From an uncultured bacterium (lineage in GTDB: Bacteria; Planctomycetota; Phycisphaerae; Phycisphaerales; SM1A02), in NCBI GenBank assembly GCA_903831295.1, contig CAIKXA010000067.1, forward strand, positions 1 through 61,365: 61,365 bases of DNA, in the 5' to 3' direction. Below, in pieces: positions 1 to 61,365 of this stretch (position 1 is its first letter; each line of letters opens with the position of its first letter). The notes under the pieces were generated by a model, which saw nothing but the letters and a program-made list of their open reading frames with translations, had not been told where the DNA came from and searched no databases. The position numbers and the translations under genes were made by a program.

Positions 1-521
1 CCCAGCAGGCGATCAACGCCTTCGCACACCACGGCCTTGTGCCGGCCCATCCACGCAATATGCCCGCCAACTTCGTTGGAATAAATCAATTCGGTATTGC
101 GAAAAACTTTTGGCTTCTGGCCAAAGAGCCGCTCAATCATGGCTTCTTGAATGGCGACTTGCTCATCAAATTCCTTGCGGCTGAACAAGAAACTGAGCGA
201 GTGATGGCTAGTCTCCGCCAAAAATTCACACGCGCCAGTATCTGCGAGCCGCTTGAACAAATCGATCAAGTCGGGCGCCCACTGCTCAAATTGCTGCAAC
301 GCCACGCCACTAATGGAATAGCTCACCCGAAAGCGATTCTCATGGCGCTTCACCAGATCGAGAATTTTTTCCGTAGTTGGTCGATAGCACTTGTTGGCCA
401 CCTTCTGCAGGATGGTTCCATTGGCCTCGGGATCAAAATAAAATGGATCTGTGTCAAACACGGAGTAGCGACGCAACCGAAACGGTTGATGCACTTGGAA
501 ATAAAGGACAACGCTTGCCAC
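1..521 (-). CDS. Glycoside hydrolase family 57 alpha-amylase-type enzyme, N-terminal part
   Basis: This gene runs off the left edge; only about 173 N-terminal codons are present. Reading the minus strand, the protein opens with a beta-strand and the sequence YFQVHQPFRLRRYSVFDTDP, followed by VSYSISG and the conserved FRNTELIYSNE segment. These are the signatures of GH57 amylases and 4-alpha-glucanotransferases, which act on alpha-1,4-glucans such as glycogen. I chose the GTG at 521 because the conserved strand begins directly there and because a TACACT hexamer lies 9 nt upstream; a further GTG at 572 is in frame but would add a non-conserved extension. The gene is divergent from pyrE. The family call is firm; the precise substrate is not visible in this fragment. 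Confidence 0.85.
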   Translation of the reverse strand, partial: MASVVLYFQVHQPFRLRRYSVFDTDPFYFDPEANGTILQKVANKCYRPTTEKILDLVKRHENRFRVSYSISGVALQQFEQWAPDLIDLFKRLADTGACEFLAETSHHSLSFLFSRKEFDEQVAIQEAMIERLFGQKPKVFRNTELIYSNEVGGHIAWMGRHKAVVCEGVDRLL

Positions 522-530
522 AGGGGTGAG

Positions 531-536
531 AGTGTA
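531..536 (-). promoter_or_regulatory. Putative -10 element (TACACT) of a leaderless GH57 transcript
   Basis: TACACT on the minus strand ends 9 nt before the GTG start at 521. There is no purine-rich ribosome binding site between them. It is one of six exact TACACT copies found in this position in the window. Confidence 0.55.
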
Positions 537-609
537 GTTGCAATCCGCAACCGCGCACGGCGCCCGCAACACACGCAAATTCCGCGGAAACTAGGGCCGA
601 TCAATGCTC

Positions 610-615
610 TATTCT
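610..615 (+). promoter_or_regulatory. Putative -10 element (TATTCT) of leaderless pyrE
   Basis: TATTCT ends 6 nt before the ATG at 622. It supports the start at 622 over the in-frame ATG at 604, which would lie upstream of the hexamer. Confidence 0.5.
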
Positions 616-621
616 GTGTGG

Positions 622-1167
622 ATGAATCGAACCACGCTTGCCGCCGAAATCGCCAAAGTCGCCATGCTGCGCGGAACCTTCACGCTGCGCAGTGGAAAAA
701 TCAGCCACTATTACCTGGATAAATATCTTTTCAGCACTCGTCCGGAAATTTTGCGCGAACTTGGCGCGTTGTTCGCGGCGCGCATTCCCGCCGGCACCAC
801 GCGCTTGGCCGGCGCGGAGCTGGGTGGCATTCCGCTTGTATCCGCCGCAAGCATGGCGAGCGGGCTGCCCTGCCTTTTTATTCGCAACCAGAAAAAAGAT
901 TATGGAACCGCCAAGCAACTTGAAGGCAAGTTGGATTGCGGCGACCGCGTGATGATTGTTGAGGACGTGGCGACCACCGGCGGCCAAGCGCTTGAAGCCG
1001 CCAAAGTTTTGCGCGAAGGCGGCGCGGAAGTCACGGCCATTGTCAGTGTGATTGACCGCATGGAAGGCGCGCGCGAAAATATCCAAGCCGCGGGTATTGC
1101 GTTTGATTCGCTCTTCACCGTTGCGGACCTTGGTATCACGCCGGACGCGGCCACAGCTCGCGCATGA
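622..1167 (+). CDS. pyrE: Orotate phosphoribosyltransferase
   Basis: This cytosolic enzyme joins orotate to PRPP to give OMP, the fifth step of UMP synthesis. The 181-residue protein carries the N-terminal RSGKISHYYLDKY orotate-side motif, a GAELGGIPL loop near residue 65, and the PRPP-binding motif VMIVEDVATTGGQAL around residue 110, whose two acidic residues contact ribose. Length is normal for bacterial PyrE. An in-frame ATG at 604 would add six residues, but 622 fits both the conserved N-terminus and the upstream -10-like hexamer. Other pyrimidine genes occur in this window as separate transcription units (carA at 21 kb, pyrB at 47 kb), so the pathway is not organised as one operon. Confidence 0.93.
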   Translation: MNRTTLAAEIAKVAMLRGTFTLRSGKISHYYLDKYLFSTRPEILRELGALFAARIPAGTTRLAGAELGGIPLVSAASMASGLPCLFIRNQKKDYGTAKQLEGKLDCGDRVMIVEDVATTGGQALEAAKVLREGGAEVTAIVSVIDRMEGARENIQAAGIAFDSLFTVADLGITPDAATARA

Positions 1168-1299
1168 TTGAACATGTTCGCAATCACATGTACTTCACCG
1201 TGGCGCATGATTGATCCACTCAACATCAAGTTCTTGTGGCATGCGACTTTCGCAAGCCCACGTCACCACTGAAAAAATTTCAAGTCGAATAGGCACCGA

Positions 1300-2217
1300 A
1301 TGGATCAAATTTTACAAACCAACCAACGCCGAAAATTGAAACGCGTTGGTTTATTTGTCGGATTGGCCCTGATCGCCGCCGCACTCTGGACGATCGCACG
1401 TAGCGGCACGATCGCAAGTCAGGCGTGGCAACATTTGTCCGTCGCCTCGCCAATTTTGTTTGCCCAACTGCTTGGCTGCATCGCGCTCATCGCGCTGTGC
1501 ACCGCCTTGTCCGTGTTGATTCTGGTCAATAGAACCCGCCCGCCAATCCGCGTTGAATTGCGGGAAATGCTTGCGCTGATTTGCGCTAGCACGCTGGGAA
1601 ATTTTGTTCCTCTGCAACCTGGACTCATTGGTCGCATTGCGTTTCACCACCAAGTGCACGGCATTGCGGTTCCGATCAGTTTGTTGATTGCAATCCAATC
1701 CACCGCGCTCACGGGAATTGCGGCGTTGTGGATTGGCGCTGGCCTTGCTTTCACGCATGCGACACATTTATCTTGGAGCGCCGCCGTGTTATCGCCAATT
1801 TTACTTGTTCCATTTCTGCGCAATACCACCGCGCGCGAATTTACCGCGGCGTTTTTTATCCGTATTGTCGAGACGTGCGTTTGGGCGCTGCGGATTCACA
1901 TTGCATTTCAATTGATCGGCCAGCCCATCGACGCTGCGGCGGCTCTTGCTTTGGCGTGCGTGGCCAACGCAGCAAACACAATTCCATTCATTGGAAACGG
2001 AATTGGCATTCGCGAATGGAGCGTTGGATTCTTGGCGCCGATGATCGCGGGCGTTCCACTGGCCGACGCGTTGGCTGCTGAAATTGTGGGGCGCTTAGCG
2101 GAAATTATTTTCTTTATTCCGGCAGGTCTGGCAGCGTGGCCCATGTTGCACAAGCGCCTACGCGTGCACCGCTCCAGGCGCATTGTTCAAACGGGCGTTG
2201 GAGAATTGGACGCGTAA
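1300..2217 (+). CDS. Polytopic membrane protein, UPF0104/lysyltransferase-flippase-like
   Basis: This is a 305-residue integral membrane protein with about seven to eight hydrophobic segments starting at residue 17. The motif NFVPLQPGLIGRIAFHHQVHG in the middle and the late segment with GNGIGIREWSVGF resemble the glycine- and proline-bearing loops of the UPF0104 (YbhN/AglD-type) family, which sits next to lipid flippase and glycosyltransferase functions. I rate the family link as moderate and the function as unknown. No substrate can be assigned. It stands alone between pyrE and a convergent TPR gene. Unlike most neighbours it has neither a clear TANNNT hexamer nor a Shine-Dalgarno sequence upstream of its ATG. 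Confidence 0.6.
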   Translation: MDQILQTNQRRKLKRVGLFVGLALIAAALWTIARSGTIASQAWQHLSVASPILFAQLLGCIALIALCTALSVLILVNRTRPPIRVELREMLALICASTLGNFVPLQPGLIGRIAFHHQVHGIAVPISLLIAIQSTALTGIAALWIGAGLAFTHATHLSWSAAVLSPILLVPFLRNTTAREFTAAFFIRIVETCVWALRIHIAFQLIGQPIDAAAALALACVANAANTIPFIGNGIGIREWSVGFLAPMIAGVPLADALAAEIVGRLAEIIFFIPAGLAAWPMLHKRLRVHRSRRIVQTGVGELDA

Positions 2218-2235
2218 TGAGCATGGATAATCAGC

Positions 2236-2269
2236 ACTGGCAATTAGTACTGGCAATTAGTATTGGCAA
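2236..2269. repeat. Short tandem direct repeat, 13-bp unit
   Basis: ACTGGCAATTAGT occurs twice without a break (2236-2248 and 2249-2261), followed by the first eight bases of a third, slightly changed copy. It lies in the 65-nt gap between two convergent genes. No role is evident. Confidence 0.7.
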
Positions 2270-2282
2270 CCCGTATTGATCA

Positions 2283-4718
2283 TCAGGGTTTAGTTTGAGT
2301 TGGAAGGTCTTTCACCTTTGCAGCGCCGCCAAAAATACCAAATTCCTCTGTGGATTCAACCACTTTGGCTTCTCTCAGAAGTCGATTGGCGATCCGAGCG
2401 CGAACACTGGATGCGACCGTGATCAACTGCTGATTCCCGCCGCGCTCAATCGCATTTAAAAACGGATCTCCTTCCGTGTCCACCCATCTTAAAAGCGCGC
2501 TCATCTGAACACGCACATCTTGTGATTGCTTCGCCGCCTTCATGATCGGATCGGTCATGACGATGGGCTCCTTTGGCAACACCATCAACGTCCATGCTTG
2601 CGCCGCGGGCGGAAGGCTCTTCCAAGCTTCGGCAACTTCCGCCCAACCTTCCTTCACCTCCGATGCAGATGCGGTGTCGCCACTTCTGCCGGCAAGATCA
2701 AAGGCAAGCAGAACCAATGTCACCAAGTCATTCGGCTGATCGCAATGGTGAATTGACCCGAGTGCCTCGTCGCGCCATGCGGCATTGCACACAACGGGCG
2801 AAATCCTTATCGAGTTTTTAGAAGTGGCGCGACCGAAAAATCCAGGCATCACGTTATCCAGAGTGAGCCGGAAATTGGTGATCATCTCAAGTTGCAGATA
2901 CGCCCCTTCAAGCGGACTCTTTAACAAAGCCTGCGCGGCAGGCGTGCGAGCTATATCCACAACAAAGGACATCTTTTCATTGCGGGCAATCTCAATTTGG
3001 CGATCGAGTAAAAATATAATTGGCGGCAAAATTTGTGGAATTTTTCCGCCAGAGATGAGCTCCAAAACAATCGCCGCCCTTGTTTCGATTGGTCCATCCG
3101 AACTAATTGCCAAAGTGATCGGACTTTGATTTGTGATTTCAATTTTGCATGGCAATGATTCAAATGGCTTTGCCGTGGTGGAAAGAAATTCAGCGCTTAC
3201 TTTCACAAACGGAGTTTCATCCTTGGCAAACAAAGCAAACTCCTTGGGCAGGCGATCTAACGCCACTTGGATTTCTGGCGCCTTGTCGGATGGGCCCATG
3301 CGCTTGTTTACAATTTGAAATAATTGATCGCTGGCGTAAAGACCAAGCGCATGGGCGCGGTCAGCGCGGGCAATTGCGGCAAATTCTTTGGCGGCCTCTT
3401 TGGTATTTCCAGATTTTGCAAGCGCCAACGCGTATCCAAGGTGCGCGCCAGGATTTTTCGCGGATATAGGCTTTAAAATTTCAATCGCCTCGGCGGTCAT
3501 GCCCTCGCGCAATTTCATCCACCCACTAAATTTGATCTTGGCTTCTGCTGAAAGCAACTGAAGGTCTTCTGTTTCCTTAAGCCAAGATTCAACGGATTGC
3601 GTGTTGGCGCCAACAGCCAAGCACAACCAAGCCTTAGCCAACAATAAAGTGGCGCGCTGCGCGGGATTATCTTTGGCGGATTCCAATTGATTATCCAGGA
3701 CCGCGTCAACGTCAGCGAGGGCCTCCTCCGAATTGGGCAAAGATCCGCTCTTGCATATCAGGGCGTGAATCGAGTTCATAGTGGCGGTCATATCGGTCAG
3801 CGTTTCCACCGGCAATCCACTATTGATTTTTTCCCTGGCGATATCAAATACCTGCTGCTTGCGGGCTTGAAACAAAGCGTCGGCCTTTTGATGTTTGCCC
3901 ATTCCCCACCGCGCCAACATTTGTTGAGCAAGCAAGCCTTCGAATTCGTTGCTCATTAAGTTTTTTTCCGCGATGCGAGCGGCGATTCCCAACAGCATGT
4001 CCGCCTGGTCGTACATCCCCTGCGTTAAACAAACGTCACCCAATTCTTTGAAGTAGGAAATTTCGTTTGGATTAGCCAAGATTGCATCAACAAGAGCGTT
4101 GGCGGTGACCGTGAACGAGGAGGATGTTTCCAATGCATACGCCGCCAATTGCGAAGCGGCCGCGGGGAATGATGGATCCAACTTCACCGCCTGTCGCAAC
4201 TGCATCAGCGACGCATCACCATCGCCGCGACGACGAAGTAGAAGTGAGTAATCAAACGCAAGTCGGCTGGCCACCTGCGTTGAAATTTTAGAGACCGATG
4301 ACGGCTGTAAGAAATGCTCGTACGCCGAAATGCGCTCATCGGCGGTCGTGCTGCGATTCACGACATCGTTCAAACGCGAAAGACGCATGACCAAATTGTT
4401 GGGCGACAATTTACAAAGTTGAATCACGGCTTCATTTGCCGCCACGGTTGCGGAAGGCATAGCCCCGTTGGTTGCGTTGGAAATCTCCAAAACACTCATC
4501 CAGCCTTCGGGGTCGTTGGGAGCCAATTCGGCGGCCATCCGAGCAATTTCCAAGGCTCCCGCATAATTCTCGGGAGTGGGCTCTTCGGGCTCGGAAATCA
4601 TTTGCATTGAGGCGCGGCCCCAGGCCACGCTTAATCTTTGAAGCGCCTCGGCTTCAAGAGTTTTCTCTGCCGTTCCCGAAAGCGCGAAAGATAGGACCAT
4701 GGTCGCGAATGACAGCAT
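2283..4718 (-). CDS. Secreted TPR-rich protein of unknown function
   Basis: This 811-residue protein begins with a short hydrophobic segment (LSFATMVLSFALSG) that looks like a weak signal peptide. The first half contains several tetratricopeptide-like helix pairs, for example ALEIARMAAELAPNDPEGW and LRQAVKLDPSFPAAASQLAA, and the region around residues 350-470 resumes this pattern. The second half, from about residue 480, is a beta-rich non-TPR region with no motif I recognise. TPR proteins usually act as protein-protein scaffolds. The gene is divergent from another secreted unknown at 4808, and both starts carry TACACT just upstream, so the two may be co-expressed. I cannot name a function. 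Confidence 0.6.
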   Translation of the reverse strand: MLSFATMVLSFALSGTAEKTLEAEALQRLSVAWGRASMQMISEPEEPTPENYAGALEIARMAAELAPNDPEGWMSVLEISNATNGAMPSATVAANEAVIQLCKLSPNNLVMRLSRLNDVVNRSTTADERISAYEHFLQPSSVSKISTQVASRLAFDYSLLLRRRGDGDASLMQLRQAVKLDPSFPAAASQLAAYALETSSSFTVTANALVDAILANPNEISYFKELGDVCLTQGMYDQADMLLGIAARIAEKNLMSNEFEGLLAQQMLARWGMGKHQKADALFQARKQQVFDIAREKINSGLPVETLTDMTATMNSIHALICKSGSLPNSEEALADVDAVLDNQLESAKDNPAQRATLLLAKAWLCLAVGANTQSVESWLKETEDLQLLSAEAKIKFSGWMKLREGMTAEAIEILKPISAKNPGAHLGYALALAKSGNTKEAAKEFAAIARADRAHALGLYASDQLFQIVNKRMGPSDKAPEIQVALDRLPKEFALFAKDETPFVKVSAEFLSTTAKPFESLPCKIEITNQSPITLAISSDGPIETRAAIVLELISGGKIPQILPPIIFLLDRQIEIARNEKMSFVVDIARTPAAQALLKSPLEGAYLQLEMITNFRLTLDNVMPGFFGRATSKNSIRISPVVCNAAWRDEALGSIHHCDQPNDLVTLVLLAFDLAGRSGDTASASEVKEGWAEVAEAWKSLPPAAQAWTLMVLPKEPIVMTDPIMKAAKQSQDVRVQMSALLRWVDTEGDPFLNAIERGGNQQLITVASSVRARIANRLLREAKVVESTEEFGIFGGAAKVKDLPTQTKP

Positions 4719-4727
4719 TATTTATTG

Positions 4728-4733
4728 AGTGTA
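4728..4733 (-). promoter_or_regulatory. Putative -10 element (TACACT) of the leaderless TPR gene
   Basis: TACACT on the minus strand ends 9 nt before the ATG at 4718; no Shine-Dalgarno sequence lies between. Confidence 0.6.
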
Positions 4734-4791
4734 ACCTTCAACCCTGAACAGTTGTCCTAGCCCTGCGCAAACAGTTGAACAAATTTATAAA

Positions 4792-4797
4792 TACACT
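4792..4797 (+). promoter_or_regulatory. Putative -10 element (TACACT) for the secreted protein gene at 4808
   Basis: TACACT ends 10 nt before the ATG at 4808. It argues against the earlier in-frame start at 4775, which would lie upstream of the expected transcription start. Confidence 0.55.
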
Positions 4798-4807
4798 TGA
4801 AATTGAT

Positions 4808-5809
4808 ATGAGATATTTCCAGCAATTCATCATTTTATTGGCGCTGATTGCCCCAATTCATTTTGCCTCGGCGCAAACTACGCCTGCGCCCACGCCGACA
4901 AAGCCTGCCGCGGCCGCAAAGTCGGAGGCAAAATCTCCGGCGCCAAATAAGGAGTTGGTGACCAGCACCAAGCCAATCGATGCGGTCGGTCAAAAACAAA
5001 TCTCGGAATTTATCGCCAGCCGTTGCGGCATCATGTTGGATGGCGACCCAGTGCAGGTCAGACTTGCGGCAACCGAAATCCAGTCGGTGTTGCGCCAACC
5101 AACCGCGACCCCAATATTTCTAAGGGCTTGCGCGGACAGCCTGAAACCGTTTGTCACCAAAATAATCGCCACCAATGACGCGTTTCGAATCAACAACATG
5201 TTGCAAGTTGTCAGATGGACACGCAACGCGGAGGCTTTGGATGTCTTGATTCAACAGACAACTACAGAGACTCAAAAAAGCGAAACAATTCGCATTGGCT
5301 CAAGCCGCCTGATGCCGGGCTGTGTTGCAACCTCAAATCTCACCGCTCCACAAATCGACAGCGCGGCGAGGCGCATACGCGAGGCCGCTGAAAGTGAAAC
5401 TCAATGGGTTGTGAGCGTGCATGAAATGCAGGCCTTGGCTTCGTTGGTCACTGTTGCGCAAGAGGCGAAACTGGTTGCACAACTTGACTTCGCGCGCTCG
5501 GAATTTTTGAAGGTGCTCACGGCAACCACGGCACAAGTGTCTAAGCCAGATGGGCATGAGCAAATCTTCGCTCTTCAACGGGGCTTGATCATTTTGCGCG
5601 ACATGCTGCTGAAGACGCCCAAGGAAGAAATGGTGAAAATCTCCCCCGCAATTCGCTCAATCACGCAGGCAACCAAGTTGATTGCCAAGGAGAAAGCGCC
5701 CGCAGTTGAGGGCTTCAACCAATCCGCCGCCAATGCCGCAATTGTGGCGGGTGTCATCGACAATCTTGTTGGGATCCAGGAGATTGATCCCAAATCCAAG
5801 GGCGGTTGA
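4808..5809 (+). CDS. Secreted hypothetical protein
   Basis: The 333-residue product starts with a clear Sec signal peptide (RYFQQFIILLALIAPIHFASA, cut after ASA-Q). A proline-, alanine- and lysine-rich linker of about 40 residues follows, then an alpha-helical domain containing many hydrophobic heptads. I do not recognise the domain; helical repeats of HEAT type are one possibility because residues 85-160 alternate short helices with conserved arginines. The next gene, an OppA-like protein, starts 18 nt downstream on the same strand, so the two are probably cotranscribed. I chose the ATG at 4808 because it begins right at the signal peptide and sits 10 nt after a TACACT hexamer. Confidence 0.6.
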   Translation: MRYFQQFIILLALIAPIHFASAQTTPAPTPTKPAAAAKSEAKSPAPNKELVTSTKPIDAVGQKQISEFIASRCGIMLDGDPVQVRLAATEIQSVLRQPTATPIFLRACADSLKPFVTKIIATNDAFRINNMLQVVRWTRNAEALDVLIQQTTTETQKSETIRIGSSRLMPGCVATSNLTAPQIDSAARRIREAAESETQWVVSVHEMQALASLVTVAQEAKLVAQLDFARSEFLKVLTATTAQVSKPDGHEQIFALQRGLIILRDMLLKTPKEEMVKISPAIRSITQATKLIAKEKAPAVEGFNQSAANAAIVAGVIDNLVGIQEIDPKSKGG

Positions 5810-5827
5810 TTGCGTTCTTCGGGCATC

Positions 5828-7600: not shown

Positions 7601-7606
7601 TCGGCG

Positions 7607-8560: not shown

Positions 8561-8570
8561 GGGTATCAAG

Positions 8571-8576
8571 ATCCTA
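8571..8576 (-). promoter_or_regulatory. Putative -10 element (TAGGAT) of oppB
   Basis: TAGGAT on the minus strand ends 10 nt before ATG 8560. It is only 13 bp away from the TACACT that faces the other way, so two start sites share a 44-bp gap. Confidence 0.45.
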
Positions 8577-8589
8577 GTCGCAGGAACAC

Positions 8590-8595
8590 TACACT
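8590..8595 (+). promoter_or_regulatory. Putative -10 element (TACACT) of the lipoprotein gene
   Basis: TACACT ends 9 nt before ATG 8605; no Shine-Dalgarno sequence is present between them. Confidence 0.6.
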
Positions 8596-8604
8596 GAACA
8601 CCTT

Positions 8605-11113: not shown

Positions 11114-11119
11114 AGTCTA
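11114..11119 (-). promoter_or_regulatory. Putative -10 element (TAGACT) of the ABC-2 permease gene
   Basis: TAGACT on the minus strand ends 6 nt before ATG 11107, leaving no room for a ribosome binding site downstream of a start site placed about 7 nt after the hexamer. Confidence 0.5.
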
Positions 11120-14348: not shown

Positions 14349-14354
14349 TACACT
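14349..14354 (+). promoter_or_regulatory. Putative -10 element (TACACT) of the DUF4139 gene
   Basis: TACACT ends 6 nt before ATG 14361. It excludes an in-frame upstream start at 14307. Confidence 0.6.
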
Positions 14355-21040: not shown

Positions 21041-21046
21041 TACACT
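21041..21046 (+). promoter_or_regulatory. Putative -10 element (TACACT) of carA
   Basis: TACACT ends 7 nt before ATG 21054. A TTTGAT sequence 16 bp upstream could be a weak -35 element. Confidence 0.6.
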
Positions 21047-47855: not shown

Positions 47856-47861
47856 TAGCCT
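47856..47861 (+). promoter_or_regulatory. Putative -10 element (TAGCCT) of the phosphoesterase gene
   Basis: TAGCCT ends 6 nt before ATG 47868, with no ribosome binding site between. Confidence 0.4.
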
Positions 47862-48557: not shown

Positions 48558-49265
48558 ATGAACCGCATGAAGCTTATAAAAAATATCGCTCTTGCTTGCG
48601 CAGTTGGTGTGGGTTTACTTGGGGTTGCATGCGCTTCGGGATCCCTAAAAAGCGGAACCATGACCACTGAAATCACGCGCGATGTGGCCGAGGGAACTTG
48701 GGCGCTCACCGACAGTGAAAATGCTTTGTTCAATGTGAATCTACTCAACGACGGCGTGGCTATAAGTAATTGGTGCAAAGGTCCCGACGGCGCCAAGGGC
48801 GAACACGGAAATTGGAAAGTGGAAGATGGCGTGTTGCTATTAAATTGGACGGATGGCTGGCTCGATGTGATTCAGTTGGGTCATATTGGATTTGAAAAAT
48901 ATTCTTACGCGCCGCGGGCGAATCGCCAAGGACCGCCGACTTCGTTTGGCCAAGCGGTGAAAGTTCTCAACTACTCAACTCAATGGTCGGGCGTGTGGAA
49001 GACTCGCAGCGCCGATGCGAAATGGAAAAACCAAGAATTTTATATTTGTCTGCAAAGCAACGGCATGGCTATGAAAAGCATCGACGCCATCAACACGGGC
49101 TGCTGGCAGAAACAACAAGGCGGCATCGCGATTTATTTCAGCGATGGTTGGTTCATGTTGATCGCGCGTGATGGCGACTCGGTTGAAGCGCGCAGTTGGG
49201 CGCCCGGCGCGGACAGAGCCGGCGTTCCCACGGGAATCACACCCATGGCGCAGGTGCTAGAGTGA
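48558..49265 (+). CDS. Secreted protein with two tandem copies of an unknown ~90-residue domain
   Basis: The 235-residue product begins with a signal peptide ending near LLGVAC (possible lipoprotein cysteine at 25). The rest is two related domains, residues about 46-137 and 145-235. Both start with G(T/V)W, continue with an F-x-(V/I)-x-L strand and (N/S)(D/N)G(V/M)A, have a central DGW, and end in (Y/W)AP-x-A-(N/D)R-x-G-x-PT. I do not recognise the family. The pattern of repeated Trp and Gly suggests small beta-barrel or lipocalin-like folds. A GGAG lies about 6 nt before ATG 48558. A small lipoprotein gene starts 5 bp after the stop. Confidence 0.65.
   Translation: MNRMKLIKNIALACAVGVGLLGVACASGSLKSGTMTTEITRDVAEGTWALTDSENALFNVNLLNDGVAISNWCKGPDGAKGEHGNWKVEDGVLLLNWTDGWLDVIQLGHIGFEKYSYAPRANRQGPPTSFGQAVKVLNYSTQWSGVWKTRSADAKWKNQEFYICLQSNGMAMKSIDAINTGCWQKQQGGIAIYFSDGWFMLIARDGDSVEARSWAPGADRAGVPTGITPMAQVLE
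49258..49263 (+). promoter_or_regulatory. Putative -10 element (TAGAGT) of the small lipoprotein gene
   Basis: TAGAGT ends 7 nt before ATG 49271 but overlaps the stop of the preceding gene, so it could be chance. Confidence 0.3.
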
Positions 49266-50770: not shown

Positions 50771-50779
50771 TATAAATTG

Positions 50780-50785
50780 ACTGTA
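50780..50785 (-). promoter_or_regulatory. Putative -10 element (TACAGT) of the sugar dehydrogenase gene
   Basis: TACAGT on the minus strand ends 9 nt before ATG 50770. Confidence 0.5.
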
Positions 50786-50824
50786 GTCCTGCCGCTTACA
50801 AATGTCTTGCGCCGCGGGATCTCG

Positions 50825-50830
50825 TACGAT
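50825..50830 (+). promoter_or_regulatory. Putative -10 element (TACGAT) of the AI-2E family gene
   Basis: TACGAT ends 7 nt before ATG 50838 and rules out a longer in-frame start at 50802. Confidence 0.5.
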
Positions 50831-50837
50831 TCGGATT

Positions 50838-53394: not shown

Positions 53395-53400
53395 CAATAA

Positions 53401-53406
53401 ATCATA
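53401..53406 (-). promoter_or_regulatory. Putative -10 element (TATGAT) of the FHA-HD-GYP gene
   Basis: TATGAT on the minus strand ends 6 nt before ATG 53394; it differs from consensus TATAAT at one position. Confidence 0.6.
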
Positions 53407-53455
53407 ACTCAATATTGTTTACACATTGAATTGTGCGCCGAGTGATTGAAGTTTC

Positions 53456-54598: not shown

Positions 54599-54679
54599 TT
54601 TGGTTTGTAATTTTGCAATAATCGATCAGTGAAACTACATCATCTTTATTCAGATTATATTGCGGCTGGATGTTGAAAT

Positions 54680-54711
54680 AAAAACCCCGCCATTGTTCTT
54701 CAATGACGGGG
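54680..54711 (-). terminator. Intrinsic terminator downstream of tRNA-Ala
   Basis: On the minus strand CCCCGTCATTG pairs with CAATGGCGGGG over 11 bp (one G-U) around a 5-nt loop and is followed by five Ts. It begins 8 nt after the tRNA 3' end. It is the best intrinsic terminator in the window. Confidence 0.9.
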
Positions 54712-54719
54712 TGTTTAAG

Positions 54720-54792
54720 TGGACCTGATCGGGATCGAACCGACCGCCTCTTCCATGCCATGGAAGCGCTCTACCAAATGAGCTACAGGCCC
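54720..54792 (-). tRNA. tRNA-Ala (anticodon GGC)
   Basis: The 73-nt sequence folds into a full cloverleaf: acceptor GGGCCTG/CAGGTCC, D arm GCTC-ATTTGGTA-GAGC, anticodon stem CTTCC/GGAAG with loop ATGGCAT (anticodon GGC) and T arm with GGTTCGATC. The acceptor stem has the G3-U70 wobble pair, the identity element for alanyl-tRNA synthetase, so the amino acid call does not rest on the anticodon alone. CCA is not encoded and must be added after transcription. Confidence 0.97.
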
Positions 54793-54937
54793 AAAGTTGC
54801 CAAATTAAATTCAGCCGCAATCAAACCACTATGCCTAAATTTCACGGCATCGACGGTGAAACATTGTACATACTGCCGCCGCATTTGACGATGGCTTGAA
54901 AAGTCATATGCCCACTCGGGCGTGGAGAATTCAGTAC

Positions 54938-55276
54938 CTATGCCGCGCCGATAGACTCGTTGAGAGTGGTCATCAATGTGGCTTTTGGAACCGCGCCAAC
55001 CCATTTCTTAATGAGTTGCCCTTGCTTGAACAGCAAGATGGTTGGAATACTTTGAATGCCATACTTCAATGCGATGGATTGGTGGTGATCAATATCAACC
55101 TTGCCAACCTTGGCTTTGCCTTTGGTTTCTTCAGCGACTTGGTCGATGGTGGGGCCGAGCATGCGGCACGGTTGACACCACTCAGCCCAAAAGTCCACCA
55201 ACACCGGAACGGCGCTCTTGAGAACTTCGCTGTCAAAATTTGCTTCTGTGAATTCGATTGTGCTTGGGCTGGCCAT
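54938..55276 (-). CDS. trxA: Thioredoxin with WCQPC active site
   Basis: The 112-residue cytosolic redox protein has the thioredoxin fold with VLVDFWAEWCQPCRMLGP at residues about 25-42, the conserved cis-proline in SIPTILLFKQGQ (about residue 76) and the usual GA-x-PK region near the end. It reduces disulfides in target proteins. The active site is WCQPC instead of the usual WCGPC, a change that may shift redox potential. A GAGGA ribosome binding site lies 4 nt before ATG 55276. It stands alone between folP and the tRNA. Confidence 0.92.
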   Translation of the reverse strand: MASPSTIEFTEANFDSEVLKSAVPVLVDFWAEWCQPCRMLGPTIDQVAEETKGKAKVGKVDIDHHQSIALKYGIQSIPTILLFKQGQLIKKWVGAVPKATLMTTLNESIGAA

Positions 55277-55361
55277 GGTTTCCTCATCAACTGCGGACGA
55301 TGTGTCCTGAATATTTTCGCTGTCTATCGCTGCCGGACGATCCGCTAGCGATGAATTGATG

Positions 55362-56243
55362 CTAGCAAGCAGCGCACGCCGCGGAAATGCTTAGGAATTG
55401 CCGATGTTCCAACACGTCGTGGACGCGCAGAATGGCGACGCCGCCTTGCGCGGCCAACGCGGCGGCGGCGAGCGATGCGGGCAATCGTTGGCTTGGATCA
55501 GTGGCGCCACTCGCGGCGCCTAAGAAACTTTTGCGGCTGAGGCTTGCCATGACTGGGAATTGACATGCAGTGATTTCATTCATGCGGCGCAATAATTTAA
55601 AATTGTCATCCACGCTTTTTCCAAACCCAAATCCGGGATCAATGACAATGCGCTCGTTCCGCACGCCGAAAGACCGTGCGCGCTCCGCCAAGCGTAAAAG
55701 TTGGGCCAACACGTCCTGCACAACATCGTTGTACGTCGGCACGATTTTATATTGATCGCTGTATTGATCTTGCTCTGGCGGCCGCAATCGATGCATGAGA
55801 ATCAAACCCGCGTTCGCATTCGCCGCAACGCGCAATATATTTTCGTCTTCCTCGCCCCCGCTGACATCATTGACAATATTCGCGCCCGCCGCAATGGCGG
55901 CCTCCGCGACCAGGCTTAATGTTGTGTCCACGCTGATGGGAACGCTTGATCGCTGCCGCAAAGCGCGAATGACAGGCTCGATGCGGCGAATTTGTTCGGC
56001 GGCTGAAACGCGCTGCGCGCCAGGGCGAGTGCTTTCGCCACCAACATCAAGAATGTCGGCGCCCTCGCTGGCCAGTCGCAGGCCGTGCTCGATGGCTTGC
56101 GTGGGCGTTGTGAATTGTCCGCCATCTGAAAATGAATCTGGAGTGCAATTAAGAATGCCCGCAAGCAATGGCCCCGTGGCAAATGAAATTGGCGCGTGCG
56201 CGGCGATGGACCAGGATGTGGCTGGTGGATGAATATGCGTCAC
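55362..56243 (-). CDS. folP: Dihydropteroate synthase
   Basis: FolP joins p-aminobenzoate to the pterin pyrophosphate in folate synthesis and is the sulfonamide target. The 293-residue TIM-barrel protein has GILNCTPDSFSDGG (about residue 29), DVGGESTRPGA (about 66), VSVDT-like ISVDTTLSLVAEAA, VNDVSGG (about 124), IVIDPGFGFGKS (about 200) and the late SRKSFLG block. The N-terminal 20 residues before the first strand are not conserved. The ATG overlaps the upstream stop by 4 bp (ATGA). Confidence 0.95.
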   Translation of the reverse strand: MTHIHPPATSWSIAAHAPISFATGPLLAGILNCTPDSFSDGGQFTTPTQAIEHGLRLASEGADILDVGGESTRPGAQRVSAAEQIRRIEPVIRALRQRSSVPISVDTTLSLVAEAAIAAGANIVNDVSGGEEDENILRVAANANAGLILMHRLRPPEQDQYSDQYKIVPTYNDVVQDVLAQLLRLAERARSFGVRNERIVIDPGFGFGKSVDDNFKLLRRMNEITACQFPVMASLSRKSFLGAASGATDPSQRLPASLAAAALAAQGGVAILRVHDVLEHRQFLSISAACAAC

Positions 56244-58186
56244 GGTTTTTTAAGCGCAGGAGTTGGCGGCGGTGTTGGCGTGATGTCTGGGGATGATTTA
56301 ATTTCCGAATCATCATTGGCGGAATTGCTCGTGCTATCTTTTGTTTGCTGACTTTCTTGCTGACTTTCTTGCTGGCCCTCTTGCTGGTCTTCTTGTTGGG
56401 CTTCTTTGCGATCGGCATACGCCGCAACCACAACACCAATTACGTTGGTTGGAATCATGGTGGCAGTTTCAATTTTTCCGCCATCGATTGAAAGCGCAAA
56501 AGCGATCGGCTCTATATCTGGCGAAGCATCGGGGATCTCCAACCCACCCATTGGAAACGCGTTGATAGTTTGTCGAACAACATTTAAAAGCGATCCCACC
56601 CCAACAAATCCCAGGACATCGGGTTTGGGCATCATCCAATTCCGAAGCGCTGTAATGACCGCGTCTGTTTGCAAAGAATTTGCGCCCGTGGTGGTGGCGA
56701 TGGCGCGCTCAAGAACATCAGGGCGTTGACTGAATGTGACGAAGACGCCATCTGGAAATGCTTTCACGAAACCGGTCGGGCCCTTAGGTCCATACAAAAC
56801 AGTTCGGAAGATGCGCTCCATTGGATTGATTCGGCGAGCGGGTTGGCCGTTCTTTGGCAGCGGAATTTCTTTCACCAGAAATGCGTCGGTTTTTGTTCCA
56901 TTCTTCAATACGCGGTCTGTTTCCCAAGTTACTTCGCGTTTCTGTCCATCCACTTCTGCGGAAAGTGAAAGCATCCATTGTTGCAAAAGTGATTTTGCAG
57001 TCACGCCATCCGTTGCGCCCAGCCAAAGCATGGCTTCGTTCAGCAAACCGCCGCCCACCACGCCCAACTTACTGGGATAGATCGCCATCTGAATGGAGGT
57101 GACGAGAGATTTATTTTGCTCCAGCCACGACGGCGCTTGTTGGCCGCCAGGAATCAACGCGGCAAGATCCAGGAACGCTTGTGTTCCACCAAGGCCAACG
57201 ATGTCCGCGGACATGGCCACAACAAATGGTCCGCGCGGCAAGTGATTTAAATTGGCGCCCGTGTGCGCGCCGCCGTGCGCCGACTTTGCCAACTCACTTG
57301 CGGGATCCAACACGGCGTAACTGCGGACTAAAACACCTAGAGGATCCACGTCGATGCTTGTGACGCCGTCAGTGAGTCCCTCCAATAATTTCGCCATGTG
57401 CTCACGCGGCGCAATGGGTTGATCCTTGGTCGACGTATTTTCTTTTTCATTGAGCGTGGGCGATTGCTCATTTTTTTCTAGAACTTCGCGCCCACGCTCT
57501 TGCATGTCGGCCAAAGATTCTGGACCAGCCCACAAACCAATATCACCATCGCAGAAAAGTGCAAAACCACGCTCGCCCAAGCGTTTTTTCAGCTGATCGG
57601 AAAGTCCCGCCTTGCGGATATACGCGCGGGCAAGCTCGGGGCTTAGGCTGACCACAACGGCGCCGTCAATTATTTTTACATAGATCATTTTACCGCGCCA
57701 TCGAAACGCGTCGGGCGCGGTGGTGGGCACGGCTTCGAAATTAGCCTGAAGAAATTGTTCGCTGTTGATTGTTGGAATCACCGCGCACCACTGCAGCGAC
57801 TTGTCGGGCGCGGTTGCAAACCACACGACGAATGCACCGCGATCATTCATTCCTGGTCCCACTCCAAACTGGCTCTTCAGAAGATCAAGCGGCTTCATCT
57901 GCGTTAACGCTTGCATGCGCTCAAGTTTCGCCGCAAGCTCGCCCATGTCTTCGCCTAGGGATTGCGCGTCCGGCACAACCACCAAACTTGCGGCGTCCGC
58001 GGGAGCCATGTCGATGGCGCTTAAAAACGCGGCCGCATTGGGTATGCGACGAGTTGGGGCTTGATTTTGATTTTGATTTTGCGTTTGCGTTTGAATATGT
58101 GCGGCGTTGGCGTGAAGCGGCGACGCAAGAACTGCCATGCTAAGAATTATGGTTGAAGCATTAAAGATCGATGTTGATACACGCAT
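56240..58186 (-). CDS. Secreted hypothetical protein with glutamine-rich repeats
   Basis: The 648-residue product has a signal peptide (about residues 5-28, cut near ANA-AH). An N-terminal glutamine/asparagine run (QTQTQNQNQNQ) follows, then a large mixed domain with repeated LARAYIRKAGLSDQLKKRLG-like helices and beta-strands. A C-terminal tail with QQE repeats (about residues 610-630) completes it. I do not recognise the domain; the pattern of PDA-x-S-LVVVPDAQSL near the N-terminus recalls secreted planctomycete proteins of unknown function. Start ATG 58186 is chosen because it begins the signal peptide. The gene overlaps folP by 4 bp. Confidence 0.55.
   Translation of the reverse strand: MRVSTSIFNASTIILSMAVLASPLHANAAHIQTQTQNQNQNQAPTRRIPNAAAFLSAIDMAPADAASLVVVPDAQSLGEDMGELAAKLERMQALTQMKPLDLLKSQFGVGPGMNDRGAFVVWFATAPDKSLQWCAVIPTINSEQFLQANFEAVPTTAPDAFRWRGKMIYVKIIDGAVVVSLSPELARAYIRKAGLSDQLKKRLGERGFALFCDGDIGLWAGPESLADMQERGREVLEKNEQSPTLNEKENTSTKDQPIAPREHMAKLLEGLTDGVTSIDVDPLGVLVRSYAVLDPASELAKSAHGGAHTGANLNHLPRGPFVVAMSADIVGLGGTQAFLDLAALIPGGQQAPSWLEQNKSLVTSIQMAIYPSKLGVVGGGLLNEAMLWLGATDGVTAKSLLQQWMLSLSAEVDGQKREVTWETDRVLKNGTKTDAFLVKEIPLPKNGQPARRINPMERIFRTVLYGPKGPTGFVKAFPDGVFVTFSQRPDVLERAIATTTGANSLQTDAVITALRNWMMPKPDVLGFVGVGSLLNVVRQTINAFPMGGLEIPDASPDIEPIAFALSIDGGKIETATMIPTNVIGVVVAAYADRKEAQQEDQQEGQQESQQESQQTKDSTSNSANDDSEIKSSPDITPTPPPTPALKKP
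56344..56403 (-). repeat. Five 12-bp units coding for QQE-type repeats
   Basis: Near-identical units give AQQE, DQQE, GQQE, SQQE and SQQT in the C-terminal tail of the protein at 56240-58186. Unit length is a multiple of three. Confidence 0.7.
58061..58094 (-). repeat. Hexanucleotide repeat coding for a Gln-Asn/Gln-Thr run
   Basis: On the plus strand TTGATT occurs about three times followed by TTGCGT twice. It encodes alternating Gln with Asn or Thr just after the signal peptide of the same gene. Confidence 0.75.
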
Positions 58187-58304
58187 TAGAATTCTTTCGA
58201 GCAAGTTGTGCGCAGAACCGAGTTGAAGTTGAGAAATGAATTGAGCCAAAGTAAAAACTTGAAAATGAACTTTCCTAGCCTCGCATAAACCCCCTCCGAG
58301 CAAC

Positions 58305-58310
58305 TACTGT
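58305..58310 (+). promoter_or_regulatory. Putative -10 element (TACTGT) of the membrane protein gene
   Basis: TACTGT ends 6 nt before GTG 58317. A TACAGT on the other strand overlaps it by five bases, so the site may be used in both directions. Confidence 0.45.
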
Positions 58311-58316
58311 ACGGGA

Positions 58317-59504
58317 GTGTTGACTCCCGAAATTATCACGTGGTCCATTTCTGGCGCCGGACTGGTGGGCGCCACGGCGGCGGCGTTGGCGTGGTTGTTG
58401 CGCGCGGCTGGCTGGAAAAATTCCTGGATTGCCGCGGGAATATGTGTTGGCGTGTTCTTTGGGCCGCTCTGCGCCGCCAAAGCATTCCCGGATTTATACG
58501 AACGTCTGATTGATGGATGCTCAGAGCAGCGCAAAGAAGTTTTACGATCGCAACGCGCCACGGAAGCATTGTTGCTCGCCGCAACAACAACTCAAACAGT
58601 TCCCGCCGAGTCAGTTGTGATTGAACTTGACGCCGCGCGCCGAAGTGCGGAAATTCGCCTGCAAGAAAGCCGAACCGCATTTGATCACGGAGCCTTATGG
58701 GTGGTCGCATTGCTGGCAGCGACCGTCACGTTGGCGCGATCACCTATGTCCGGTCGCATACGTTGGTGGATGGGCGGCGGATTGGCCATCGGAGCATGGA
58801 CTGTTTTAATTCCAATCGCCGTGGTTTTTCTGGTGGCCAAAATTGAAACACAAGAAGTGCTTGCAACATGGAGCCTTGTTGCCGCGGCCACTGTGGCGTT
58901 TGGGGCGGCGTTGCCCCGCGGCACTGAACGCTGGATGACCATGGGCTTGCTTGCGGAAAATTCCTCATCCATTGACGCGGCCCGAGGCTGCGCTGGATTT
59001 ATTTCATTCACAGTGGCTTGCATGGCGGCTTGGGGAATGGAATTTGATTCGGCCGCGGCGTGGCTGCTTCCTTGGGGAACCATGTTGGCCGCGTGGGGAT
59101 TACGCGATCTTCCAAATACATTTTTATCGCGCAGTTTTGGACCAGCCACGGCGGCGGCGGTTGCGATCGCTTTAAGCCGCGTTGATGTGTTGCACGAATT
59201 TCGAGTGGCGCCAACAGTGGGACTTTATTTCGCCGGGGAAGATTTGCGATGGATCGCGGCGGCAAGTGGATTTGCATTAACGCTGGCAGTTCCGTGGCTG
59301 CGTTCATTGCGCGTGGCGTTGGCAATTTCCAGCGCGCCATTGCCACAAGCCGCGCTGGCCTCGACGGCTTTAATGATTGGCGTGCTTCCAAATTGGATGG
59401 GCGTTTCGCTGTTGGCGGCGGCGGCAACAACGGAAGTGCTTCTGCCCCTGCGCCAAATCACAGCAAAGCAACTCGAGAAAAATATTCACGAAACGCCACT
59501 GTGA
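58317..59504 (+). CDS. Polytopic membrane protein of unknown function
   Basis: The 395-residue protein has about nine transmembrane segments. The first two (about residues 8-30 and 38-55) precede a soluble, charged helical region (about 65-115) containing ERLIDGCSEQRKEVL. The remaining helices fall in two groups separated at about residue 210. I see no transporter signature, conserved acidic residue in the membrane or family match. The start is GTG 58317, with TACTGT 6 nt upstream; a TTG follows as the second codon. The gene is convergent with the glutathione peroxidase gene, with 22 bp between them. Confidence 0.5.
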   Translation: MLTPEIITWSISGAGLVGATAAALAWLLRAAGWKNSWIAAGICVGVFFGPLCAAKAFPDLYERLIDGCSEQRKEVLRSQRATEALLLAATTTQTVPAESVVIELDAARRSAEIRLQESRTAFDHGALWVVALLAATVTLARSPMSGRIRWWMGGGLAIGAWTVLIPIAVVFLVAKIETQEVLATWSLVAAATVAFGAALPRGTERWMTMGLLAENSSSIDAARGCAGFISFTVACMAAWGMEFDSAAAWLLPWGTMLAAWGLRDLPNTFLSRSFGPATAAAVAIALSRVDVLHEFRVAPTVGLYFAGEDLRWIAAASGFALTLAVPWLRSLRVALAISSAPLPQAALASTALMIGVLPNWMGVSLLAAAATTEVLLPLRQITAKQLEKNIHETPL

Positions 59505-59526
59505 ATCATTGGCGTGATGCGAAAAT

Positions 59527-60147
59527 TTATTTTTGCTTCGGATCGGAAGGCTCGGCTGGTTTTAAACCCAAAGCTTGCTCGATCGCGGCCACCAACGCCT
59601 TGTCGTCGGGCGCAACATTGCTGGCATAAAATGCGATCGGTTGCCCCTGCTTATTGACCACATATTTGCTGAAATTCCATCCGGGCGATTTGCCGATTCG
59701 CGTTCCAAGAAATTCATAAATTTCGCTTTGGCCTGGTCCAGGCTTGGTTTGCTCTTTGGACAACATTGGAAATGTCACGGAATATTTAGAGGAGCAAAAT
59801 TCCTTGATTTCTTTTTGGCTGCCTGGCTCTTGACCACCAAAATCATTGCTTGGGATTCCAAGCACCACAAGTCCTTTGTCTTTGTAAGTGTCATACAACT
59901 TTTGTAGACCGGCATATTGACCCGTGAAGCCGCAACGACTTGCGACATTCACGACCAAGACAACTTTGCCTTGATATTGCGGAAGATCCGCGGGCGCTCC
60001 GTCGAGTGTGGTTGCTTTGATTGAATACATGCTGCGATCCTTCCATTTTTGAACAAGCTCGGCATTTTGCGGAGCGGATTGGGCACACGCAAATCCAGTG
60101 ACCGCCGCTATTGCGCCAAGAATTGTGGATGTGATATTTCTTTTCAT
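59527..60147 (-). CDS. Secreted glutathione peroxidase family protein
   Basis: The 206-residue protein has an N-terminal signal peptide (about residues 4-23, cut near AC-AQ), placing it outside the cytoplasm. The enzyme core shows the peroxidatic Cys in VNVASRCGFTGQY (about residue 72), GIPSNDFGGQEPG with the catalytic Gln (about 107), and WNFSKYVVN near residue 160 with the catalytic Trp and Asn. It uses Cys, not selenocysteine. Non-animal members normally take electrons from thioredoxin, not glutathione. ATG 60147 has TACTAT 6 nt upstream; an earlier in-frame start at 60228 is excluded by this promoter and by the signal peptide. Confidence 0.9.
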   Translation of the reverse strand: MKRNITSTILGAIAAVTGFACAQSAPQNAELVQKWKDRSMYSIKATTLDGAPADLPQYQGKVVLVVNVASRCGFTGQYAGLQKLYDTYKDKGLVVLGIPSNDFGGQEPGSQKEIKEFCSSKYSVTFPMLSKEQTKPGPGQSEIYEFLGTRIGKSPGWNFSKYVVNKQGQPIAFYASNVAPDDKALVAAIEQALGLKPAEPSDPKQK

Positions 60148-60153
60148 GCACCC

Positions 60154-60159
60154 ATAGTA
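60154..60159 (-). promoter_or_regulatory. Putative -10 element (TACTAT) of the glutathione peroxidase gene
   Basis: TACTAT on the minus strand ends 6 nt before ATG 60147. TTGAAT 18 bp upstream of it is a possible -35 element. Confidence 0.6.
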
Positions 60160-60201
60160 GGCACAATTATGGAGTGAATTCAACAACGCAGATTCCCTCG
60201 T

Positions 60202-60207
60202 TAGTAT
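60202..60207 (+). promoter_or_regulatory. Putative -10 element (TAGTAT) of the phosphatase-like gene
   Basis: TAGTAT ends 6 nt before GTG 60214. TTCAAC 17 bp upstream is a weak -35 candidate. Confidence 0.55.
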
Positions 60208-60213
60208 TTGTTT

Positions 60214-61365
60214 GTGTCCTCTTTCCAAAGCGAAGATTTAACCCCAACCGTTCCGCCTCCAGGCCCATTGGTGACGGTTGATTTAACAGAACCAAGAGCC
60301 AAACTTATTTTGGAGAGGGTTCGTCAACGCGTGGCGATGTGGGGCGATACTGGGAGAACGCTGCATCGGGCATTCGACGCGGTGCAGGCCGCGAATCAAT
60401 TGGTGGGTTCTGGTCCTGGGGCGATGGGCGCGGAATTTCGTCCCATTGGTAGACGCGTTCTTCGACTGAATGAAATTTCAGAGGAGGAGGCATTCTGGAT
60501 CATCGGAGATGTGCGGGGAGATGTGTTGGCGCTTGAAACTGTTCTTGCGTTTATTGATGAGGCCACGGGAAGAGGCCGCTCGCCGCAAATTGTTTTTCTT
60601 GGCGACTTGGCCGCTGGAACTTTGGGCGATGCAGCTTGCTTGGCGATCGCACTTGAGCGATTCGCGGCCGCTCCTAGCCGCACTATTTTTATCGCCGGCG
60701 ATCGGGAACTTGCGCTGACTTTGGAGAATGAAAAAGCAACTGATGATCGCAAGCCGCGCGGACTGGCGGACATGCCCGTACCCGACGCGCTTCAAAATTC
60801 ACTACGTAATCTGGCGCGCGCATTTTCGGAGCTTGTTGAAAAAATTCCGGTAGCCGCGATCTGTCCAGACGGAATGTTGCTGGCACATAGCGCGCTTCCA
60901 CGCGAATCGATTTTGGCGGCGATTGAGAATGCGCAGATACTGGAGTCGCAACCAAATGTTCTGCGAGCCTTTGCGTTTGATCGGCTACATCCGCGAGAGC
61001 CGCAAGTAATTCCGTCGGCGATATCAGGTGAAGGGCCCGCAAAGCCCGAGGACTTTGCAAAATCCCTGCAGTCCTTAAATCGAATATTTGAGATACCCGT
61101 GGTTCGAATGGTGCGCGGCCACGACGCCGCGCCGGAGGGACATCGTTGGTTTCGTCATTATGGCGATGGAATTTTGTTGACCATCACCACCATGGCGGAT
61201 GAATTGCCAATCGAGATTGGTGGCGGCCGTAGAAAACCATCCGTGGCACGATTGAAGTCCAAGCGTTTGCGCGTGGTGCGATTTGAAATTCCCGAGTCCA
61301 TCGCGATCGTTGCGCAACAAATATTTCCAAATCAACCCGCGGTCATACATAAAGAAATTTCTTCG
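60214..61365 (+). CDS. Degenerate Ser/Thr-phosphatase-like metallophosphoesterase, C-terminus missing
   Basis: An open frame of 384 codons from GTG 60214 continues to the right edge without a stop. After about 90 helical residues it shows the order of PPP-type phosphatase motifs: IIGDVRGDVLA (about residue 95; canonical GDIHG), VFLGDLAAGT (about 127; canonical GDxVDRG), IAGDRELAL (about 162; canonical GNHE), LLAHSALP (about 225) and MVRGHDAAP (about 301; canonical RGH). The first motif has Arg for His, the second lacks the second Asp and the third has Asp for Asn, so several metal ligands look altered. The fold assignment is good, but activity is doubtful. It was recovered by translating the plus strand because it has no ATG start or stop in the window. 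Confidence 0.7.
   Translation, partial: MSSFQSEDLTPTVPPPGPLVTVDLTEPRAKLILERVRQRVAMWGDTGRTLHRAFDAVQAANQLVGSGPGAMGAEFRPIGRRVLRLNEISEEEAFWIIGDVRGDVLALETVLAFIDEATGRGRSPQIVFLGDLAAGTLGDAACLAIALERFAAAPSRTIFIAGDRELALTLENEKATDDRKPRGLADMPVPDALQNSLRNLARAFSELVEKIPVAAICPDGMLLAHSALPRESILAAIENAQILESQPNVLRAFAFDRLHPREPQVIPSAISGEGPAKPEDFAKSLQSLNRIFEIPVVRMVRGHDAAPEGHRWFRHYGDGILLTITTMADELPIEIGGGRRKPSVARLKSKRLRVVRFEIPESIAIVAQQIFPNQPAVIHKEISS

Follow-up and report, generated by a model that had tools for sequence, protein, structure and literature searches.

TANNNT hexamers as putative leaderless promoters in an uncultured Phycisphaerales bacterium

At many gene starts of an uncultured planctomycete of the order Phycisphaerales (GTDB SM1A02; assembly GCA_903831295.1), a TANNNT hexamer stands a few nucleotides before the start codon. 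It was noticed at 17 starts of contig CAIKXA010000067.1 (C67), a complete contig of 61,365 nucleotides that is called the window below. The hexamers are very probably -10 elements of the sigma70 type, with transcription starting at or within a few nucleotides of the AUG or GUG, a reading drawn from the sequence. They are taken as -10 elements of leaderless promoters because this fits their restriction to ATG and GTG, their rarity at overlapping genes, their presence at tRNA genes and their conservation in relatives. The initial annotation had described a widespread signature of leaderless transcripts, and the geometry, with its peak at a fixed distance from the start, is indeed of that type; from it we infer the leaderlessness.

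In the mechanism proposed, the housekeeping (sigma70-type) RNA polymerase would read the hexamer as a -10 element, presumably through the main sigma factor, and would initiate on, or a few nucleotides from, the A or G of the start codon. The mRNA would carry no leader or nearly none, and the ribosome would recognize the 5'-terminal start codon without Shine-Dalgarno pairing. Starts with a Shine-Dalgarno site run alongside in the same genome.

Position and frequency of the hexamer

The genome comprises 2.48 Mb in 120 contigs and is 84% complete. An independent sample of 977,432 bases of the same genome, all outside the window (~40% of the assembly, five stretches of N removed), was analyzed with a gene finder built on dicodon statistics, which is blind to upstream signals and to TANNNT. 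For each gene, a start zone was defined from at most 200 nt upstream to 30 nt downstream of the finder's own best start. All in-frame ATG and GTG codons of the zone were counted, with the out-of-frame ATG and GTG codons of the same zone and of 30 nt further upstream as the control. As the finder's best start is the one annotated in just 8 of the 17 window cases, zone-wide candidates were counted and single start choices were not relied on.

Scoring over the genome had been proposed as the check on the signature and, on these 977 kb, it revealed a sharply defined peak at 6-7 nt. Of the 1131 in-frame candidates, 198 have a TANNNT that ends 5-10 nt upstream, against 36 of the 984 out-of-frame ones (Fisher p = 2e-26, candidates being taken as independent though one gene may yield several). 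At 5, 6, 7, 8, 9, 10 and 11 nt, the in-frame counts are 8, 93, 40, 10, 34, 14 and 16, and the out-of-frame counts 4, 7, 7, 3, 5, 11 and 3. The motif is restricted to ATG and GTG: TTG candidates have no excess (17/596 in-frame vs. 54/1055 out-of-frame). The peak is lost once a fixed base is altered, whether the last (TANNNV, 154/1131 vs. 113/984), the first (VANNNT, 279 vs. 301 among the same candidates) or the second (TBNNNT, 269 vs. 317). TAYNNT, which cannot be a stop codon, precedes 112/1131 in-frame and 20/984 out-of-frame candidates (51, 21, 6 and 22 in-frame cases at 6-9 nt); since this form peaks at the same spacing, in-frame stop codons are excluded as the cause. Separately, [ACG]ANNNT has a surplus at spacing 4 before in-frame starts (110 cases; every other spacing from 2 to 19 has 37-88).

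At the gene level, 716 of the 801 called genes were tallied, the other 85 lying at locus ends or being divergent with a gap outside 1-499 nt. The motif is concentrated at first genes: 98/210 divergent genes carry it (out-of-frame control 14/210), vs. only 5/106 overlapping tandem genes (control 2/106). Tandem genes with a gap above 100 nt have it in 46/173 cases (control 10/173) and those with a gap of 21-100 nt in 49/151 (control 8/151). The class with a gap of 0-20 nt fits the first-gene rule poorly (19/76 with an in-frame motif start vs. 0/76 out-of-frame); it could represent internal promoters, or the stop codons of the upstream gene could match the pattern. After subtraction of the controls, about a quarter of the genes (~183/716) carry the motif, a total that includes this confounded class.

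The excess in the window was estimated at first from a chance rate of about 8%. The measured rate is lower, 4.4% (1835/41930 arbitrary positions 20-89 nt upstream of called starts, in the sample and the window), and 17 of about 31 starts lies far above chance with either figure (p ~1e-15 at 4.4%, 2e-11 at 8%). The enrichment therein stood; the level of 55% did not, as 193/534 head genes (36%) and 98/210 divergent genes (47%) have the motif at 5-10 nt outside the window. A rich window, or the bias that the initial annotation admitted in choosing some starts by the motif, explains the difference. The same two facts, the admitted bias and the step from 55% to 36%, are what speaks for chance, base composition or start choice as the source of the whole signal. 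This account, however, retains practically no probability and is refuted for the genome sample overall: the calls on the 977 kb were motif-blind, the sequence had not been seen when the signature was proposed, and the out-of-frame control differs at the p-value given. Moreover, the same pipeline is negative in E. coli K-12 (10/126 in-frame vs. 12/95 out-of-frame), and the enrichment is absent from the 14 loci that belong to other phyla within the best 80 for the window's carA (ATG 11/92 vs. 9/70; GTG 3/36 vs. 6/63). Single cases, such as 49271+ and 48567 below, may still be chance.

The proposed coexistence of two start classes is borne out as well, GGAG, GAGG or AGGA preceding 141/1131 in-frame vs. 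25/984 out-of-frame candidates. This Shine-Dalgarno signal is found genome-wide and is not found for the 17 window cases. No 16S rRNA gene was found in the genome itself; in the 16S of a same-genus genome (G014), the anti-Shine-Dalgarno tail is intact and ends in CACCTCCTTT.

The 17 starts of the window

All 17 starts named (by coordinate and strand) have a TANNNT ending 6-10 nt upstream, and six of the hexamers are exactly TACACT, as had been reported:

531..536, minus strand: TACACT, 9 nt before the GTG of 521- (GH57 family protein); position 1 of the Pfam GH57 profile aligns at residue 5
610..615, plus strand: TATTCT, 6 nt before the ATG of 622+; in-frame candidate of the start zone
4728..4733, minus strand: TACACT, 9 nt before the ATG of 4718- (TPR protein); the motif-blind finder picks the same start
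4792..4797, plus strand: TACACT, 10 nt before the ATG of 4808+; in-frame candidate of the start zone
8571..8576, minus strand: TAGGAT, 10 nt before the ATG of 8560- (ABC permease); the Pfam N-terminal domain starts at residue 1
8590..8595, plus strand: TACACT, 9 nt before the ATG of 8605+; kept in genus loci
11114..11119, minus strand: TAGACT, 6 nt before the ATG of 11107- (ABC-2 transporter); the motif-blind finder picks the same start
14349..14354, plus strand: TACACT, 6 nt before the ATG of 14361+ (DUF4139); the first motif-blind model agrees, the retrained model gives 14451
21041..21046, plus strand: TACACT, 7 nt before the ATG of 21054+ (carA); position 1 of the Pfam carbamoyl-phosphate synthase small chain is at residue 11
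47856..47861, plus strand: TAGCCT, 6 nt before the ATG of 47868+ (metallophosphoesterase); the motif-blind start agrees and Pfam position 2 is at residue 4
49258..49263, plus strand: TAGAGT, 7 nt before the ATG of 49271+; a doubtful case whose hexamer overlaps the preceding gene's end
50780..50785, minus strand: TACAGT, 9 nt before the ATG of 50770- (GSDH); kept in genus loci
50825..50830, plus strand: TACGAT, 7 nt before the ATG of 50838+ (AI-2E transporter); kept in genus loci
53401..53406, minus strand: TATGAT, 6 nt before the ATG of 53394- (FHA/HD protein); the motif-blind finder picks the same start
58305..58310, plus strand: TACTGT, 6 nt before the GTG of 58317+; the motif-blind finder picks the same start
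60154..60159, minus strand: TACTAT, 6 nt before the ATG of 60147- (glutathione peroxidase family); the motif-blind finder picks the same start
60202..60207, plus strand: TAGTAT, 6 nt before the GTG of 60214+; in-frame candidate of the start zone

Sixteen of these starts are motif-bearing in-frame candidates in the motif-blind start zones. The remaining one, 49271+, belongs to a short, low-scoring open reading frame (ORF) 5 nt behind the preceding gene, which the head filter dropped; this case stays doubtful. Within the window, the motif at 6-10 nt is found for 17/68 in-frame ATG/GTG candidates vs. 3/50 out-of-frame ones, and by context at 15/20 divergent starts and 2/15 tandem starts with a gap above 20 nt.

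The nine starts that the finder places elsewhere are mostly put inside the gene, for example 8506 for 8560, 8698 for 8605, 21147 for 21054 and 50614 for 50770. Conservation in the genus (8560-, 8605+, 50770-) and the motif favor the longer forms, and start prediction may often truncate the genes of this lineage. Gene finders tuned to Shine-Dalgarno sites may likewise misplace starts in the lineage, the motif-blind finder having missed 9 of the 17. A further TACCAT lies 7 nt before 48567, the second in-frame ATG of the gene 48558+, whose first start is preceded by a GGAG site; it is probably a chance match.

Promoter features and alternative readings

TACACT is the commonest form (19 genes) among the 182 genes, those of the window included, that have the hexamer at 6, 7 or 9 nt. 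The middle of the hexamer prefers C or G, then A, then A or C, and a G is found two bases upstream in 87 genes. The base just before the start codon is a pyrimidine at 130/166 motif starts vs. 218/360 others (p = 7e-5), which fits a pyrimidine-purine (YR) transcription start, as expected if transcription begins at the A or G of the start codon.

The hexamer is also found in front of untranslated genes. TANNNT lies 8-14 nt upstream of 13 of the 23 tRNA genes of the sample and is TACACT in three of them; the 4.4% measured for five spacings would suggest ~6% by chance for these seven, a figure that is extrapolated and not shuffled. The remaining tRNA genes have it at 21-25 nt (four genes) or 3 nt (one), or have no TANNNT within 35 nt (five). 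From these positions, TANNNT looks like the -10 element of this genome.

These tRNA genes bear on the possibility that the hexamer is a translation signal on mRNAs with leaders, either an AU-rich site for protein S1 or an alternative ribosome binding site. S1-domain proteins are present in all 59 genomes searched, including this one, and upstream biases in Planctomycetes have been suggested to stem from leaderless mRNA and/or S1 in the text available (PMC5397173). A translation signal is nevertheless improbable, given that the same hexamer precedes 13/23 tRNA genes, is rare at overlapping genes (5/106), requires its T, its A and its final T, and excludes TTG starts.

The spacing is bimodal, with a main mode at 6-7 nt, a second at 9 nt and a dip at 8 (93, 40, 10 and 34 at 6-9 nt). 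The second mode raises the possibility that the promoters are real and close to the gene but that, in the 9-10 nt class at least, the transcripts carry leaders of 2-5 nt. A hexamer 9-10 nt away would be compatible with a leader of 2-4 nt. Short leaders are a serious, if the less likely, possibility. In favor of them, the orthologues of 8605+ drift in spacing from 8 to 11 nt while TACACT stays. However, the 6-7 nt class is the largest, with the usual distance from the -10 element landing on the start codon, and the 9-nt class is pyrimidine-rich before the start (purine fraction 0.35, 0.26 and 0.15 at -3, -2 and -1, n = 34), favoring initiation at the A itself.

The dip was discarded as a general rule. 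It is loosely matched by the two genomes of the same genus (25, 15, 4, 5 and 4 at 6-10 nt) and is absent in the pooled relatives of the family and order (20, 16, 10, 5, 3) and in the flanks of carA described below (25, 21, 24, 9, 10). Deinococcus ficus has no clear dip (10, 8, 3, 2, 3 and 2 at 5-10 nt), the sample of D. radiodurans is too small to judge it (7, 4, 0 and 4 at 6-9 nt), and the orthologues of 8605+ include a spacing of 8 nt. Non-canonical start codons were also rejected for the 9-nt class, as the triplets before the start have no codon in common.

In a last reading, a short leader gene would end at the TAG or TAA of the hexamer, its stop codon, and ribosomes would reinitiate from there. 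An excess of short ORFs whose end lies 10-11 bp before a gene, most marked for UAG in Planctomycetes and three other groups, has been interpreted in that way in the text available (PMC4833913). With the distance definition of that paper, 10-11 bp is exactly where the TAG of a TAGNNT at 6-7 nt falls. When stops were counted with or without a leader ORF in our sample outside the window, TAG was found 42 and 19 times at 10 and 11 bp before in-frame starts vs. 6 and 5 times out of frame. TAA is weaker (17 and 19 vs. 7 and 6), and TGA gives no peak (9 and 22 vs. 17 and 19). A leader gene is very improbable here: 31 of the 42 TAGs at 10 bp also have the final T of TANNNT, and TAYNNT, never a stop, peaks at the same place. 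The promoter form TAGNNT accounts for the UAG peak without leader peptides, and the published peak is probably the same hexamer, as judged on this genome sample and not on the data of that paper. The hexamer offers a simple alternative account of it. In the control plasmids, the counts were too small to judge such a peak.

Conservation in relatives and known systems

The -10 elements of leaderless promoters proposed here are shared between orthologues. Among reciprocal best hits with the same-genus genome G014 (40 of 43 pairs used), the orthologue has the motif in 5/8 cases when the own gene has it and in 2/32 when it does not (odds ratio 25). With G001 (48 of 55 pairs used), the figures are 14/19 and 4/29 (odds ratio 17.5). 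Three control hexamers pooled gave 3/23 vs. 14/97 with G014. The comparisons at family and order level are not significant and rest on few pairs, with 2/4 vs. 3/9 for G024 (13 pairs) and 2/2 vs. 2/5 for G042 (7 pairs).

Single genes were followed in the genus loci that hold the N-terminal part of the gene, the own copy included; several relatives are very close (protein identity at least 94%), so that the loci are partly non-independent. For 8605+, all 14 loci have an exact TACACT at 8-11 nt upstream of an in-frame ATG, down to 50% identity; the protein alignment reaches residue 1 in 5/14, and in the rest the ATG is in frame upstream of the aligned part. TANNNT stands at exactly 7 nt for 50838+ in 5/5 loci, while its middle varies (TACGAT, TAGGAT or TAGACT). 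TACAGT is kept 9 nt before an in-frame ATG in 4/5 loci for 50770-. The permease 8560- has TAGGAT or TAGCAT at 10-11 nt in 9/14 loci, and another TANNNT there in two. In the change from TAGGAT to TAGCAT, the T, the A and the final T are kept and AGGA, a possible Shine-Dalgarno look-alike, is lost.

Each relative was sampled by only 120-200 kb. Both same-genus genomes are positive (in-frame vs. out-of-frame 27/206 vs. 3/144 and 28/229 vs. 2/248), as are one of two genomes of the same family (26/312 vs. 5/227; the other 9/217 vs. 4/175) and one of three of the same order (17/171 vs. 1/137; the others 9/221 vs. 4/147 and 8/132 vs. 3/115). The enrichment is not significant in G034, G056 and G051, of the same family or order. 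A spread over the whole phylum was rejected, as three genomes of other planctomycete classes gave no clear signal (3/120 vs. 3/93, 12/136 vs. 10/104 and 10/116 vs. 4/74). The best 80 loci for the window's carA include two of uncultured bacteria at 92% identity, followed by others at 65-69% that are mostly labelled as planctomycetes, with many Phycisphaerae or Phycisphaerales among them; this places the organism as a planctomycete near Phycisphaerales. The 80 loci comprise the 14 of other phyla and 66 grouped as planctomycete (five without such a title). In the flanks of these 66, divided into three GC-content groups, the motif precedes in-frame ATG in 24/156, 29/240 and 19/192 cases vs. 4/107, 1/142 and 0/115 out of frame. 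GTG is weaker, with 9/173 vs. 3/207 and 8/116 vs. 3/111 in two of the groups.

Several observations weigh against leaderless -10 promoters. A TTGACA-like -35 box 15-19 nt upstream is not enriched (35 of the 182 genes with at least four matches vs. a shuffled mean of 33.8, sd 5.1), so that these would be -10-only promoters. An exactly leaderless transcript of the 9-nt mode would have to start unusually far from its -10 element. The control hexamers exhibit a weak association between orthologues with G001 (14/36 vs. 19/108, p = 0.01), the motif is lacking in the 50770- orthologue of L237 and in the permease of 3/14 loci (L248, L250 and L251), and GTG is not enriched in the low-GC group of carA flanks (1/40 vs. 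7/62). The exact 5' ends, finally, are inferred from sequence.

The system is of a known kind, and is without a literature description for this lineage in the searches made. In Deinococcus radiodurans and Deinococcus-Thermus, the -10 motif adjoining ORFs is TANNNT, most often TACACT and mostly at 6-7 bp; a GGAG motif coexists with it, and an added -35 box enhances it, according to the available text (PMC12340547). The present case is similar in the hexamer, its commonest form, the 6-7 nt spacing and the GGAG starts alongside. It differs in the phylum, in a promoter role that was tested by mutation there and is read from sequence here, and in the spacing, whose second mode at 9 nt and dip at 8 nt are clear here and not established there as far as that text goes. 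Zheng et al. 2011 (PMC3160421) described TA-led genes, with the first T of TANNNT ~12 bp before the start, as here, and interpreted the hexamer as a leaderless -10 box. "Planctomycet-" does not occur in the main text of that paper and has no row in its Table 2; the phylum may be included in "Other Bacteria" (8/20). For one Planctomycetes genome, Nakagawa et al. 2017 (PMC5397173) took an upstream bias as leaderless and/or S1; unlike in the present case, the text available gives no hexamer and no position, and leaves the two readings unseparated. Phycisphaerae are present in a table of anti-Shine-Dalgarno types, and no leaderless use is named for them in the text available of that paper (PMC10783764). 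No description of leaderless TANNNT starts in Phycisphaerales was found in the open-licence literature (text, not figures). The phylum may be covered by the domain-wide scan in Fig. S7 of PMC12340547, and a prediction for the lineage may stand in genome-wide tables of the kind that underlie GeneMarkS-2 (cited in PMC9581028).

The genome provides a large, mostly uncultured phylum with a clear and testable case of widespread leaderless initiation, relevant to the evolution of leaderless translation and to the annotation of environmental genomes. It is conceivable, though doubtful, that this freshwater Phycisphaerales lineage independently reached a Deinococcus-like leaderless share through -10-only promoters in two registers (6-7 and 9 nt, skipping 8). 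The two registers may reflect a rule by which leaders of 0 or ~3 nt are translated well and those of 1-2 nt are not. If this were true, the same hexamers would also cause the 10-11 bp UAG peak in phyla rich in leaderless genes.

For calibration, known genomes were passed through the same pipeline with samples of 150-200 kb each, three of the four being plasmids. Divergent genes carry the motif in 10/24 cases in D. radiodurans MP1 and 18/42 in D. ficus pDFI1 (28/66 together), vs. 3/18 in a Streptomyces plasmid and 3/24 in E. coli K-12. The share found here (98/210) is thus about at the Deinococcus level. Among the candidates, the in-frame and out-of-frame counts are 18/151 vs. 6/108 in D. radiodurans (p = 0.06), 28/212 vs. 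4/153 in D. ficus and 7/174 vs. 0/142 in Streptomyces. In D. ficus pDFI1 (L263-L266), 5 nt (10 cases) outranks 6 nt (8 cases) as the most frequent spacing.

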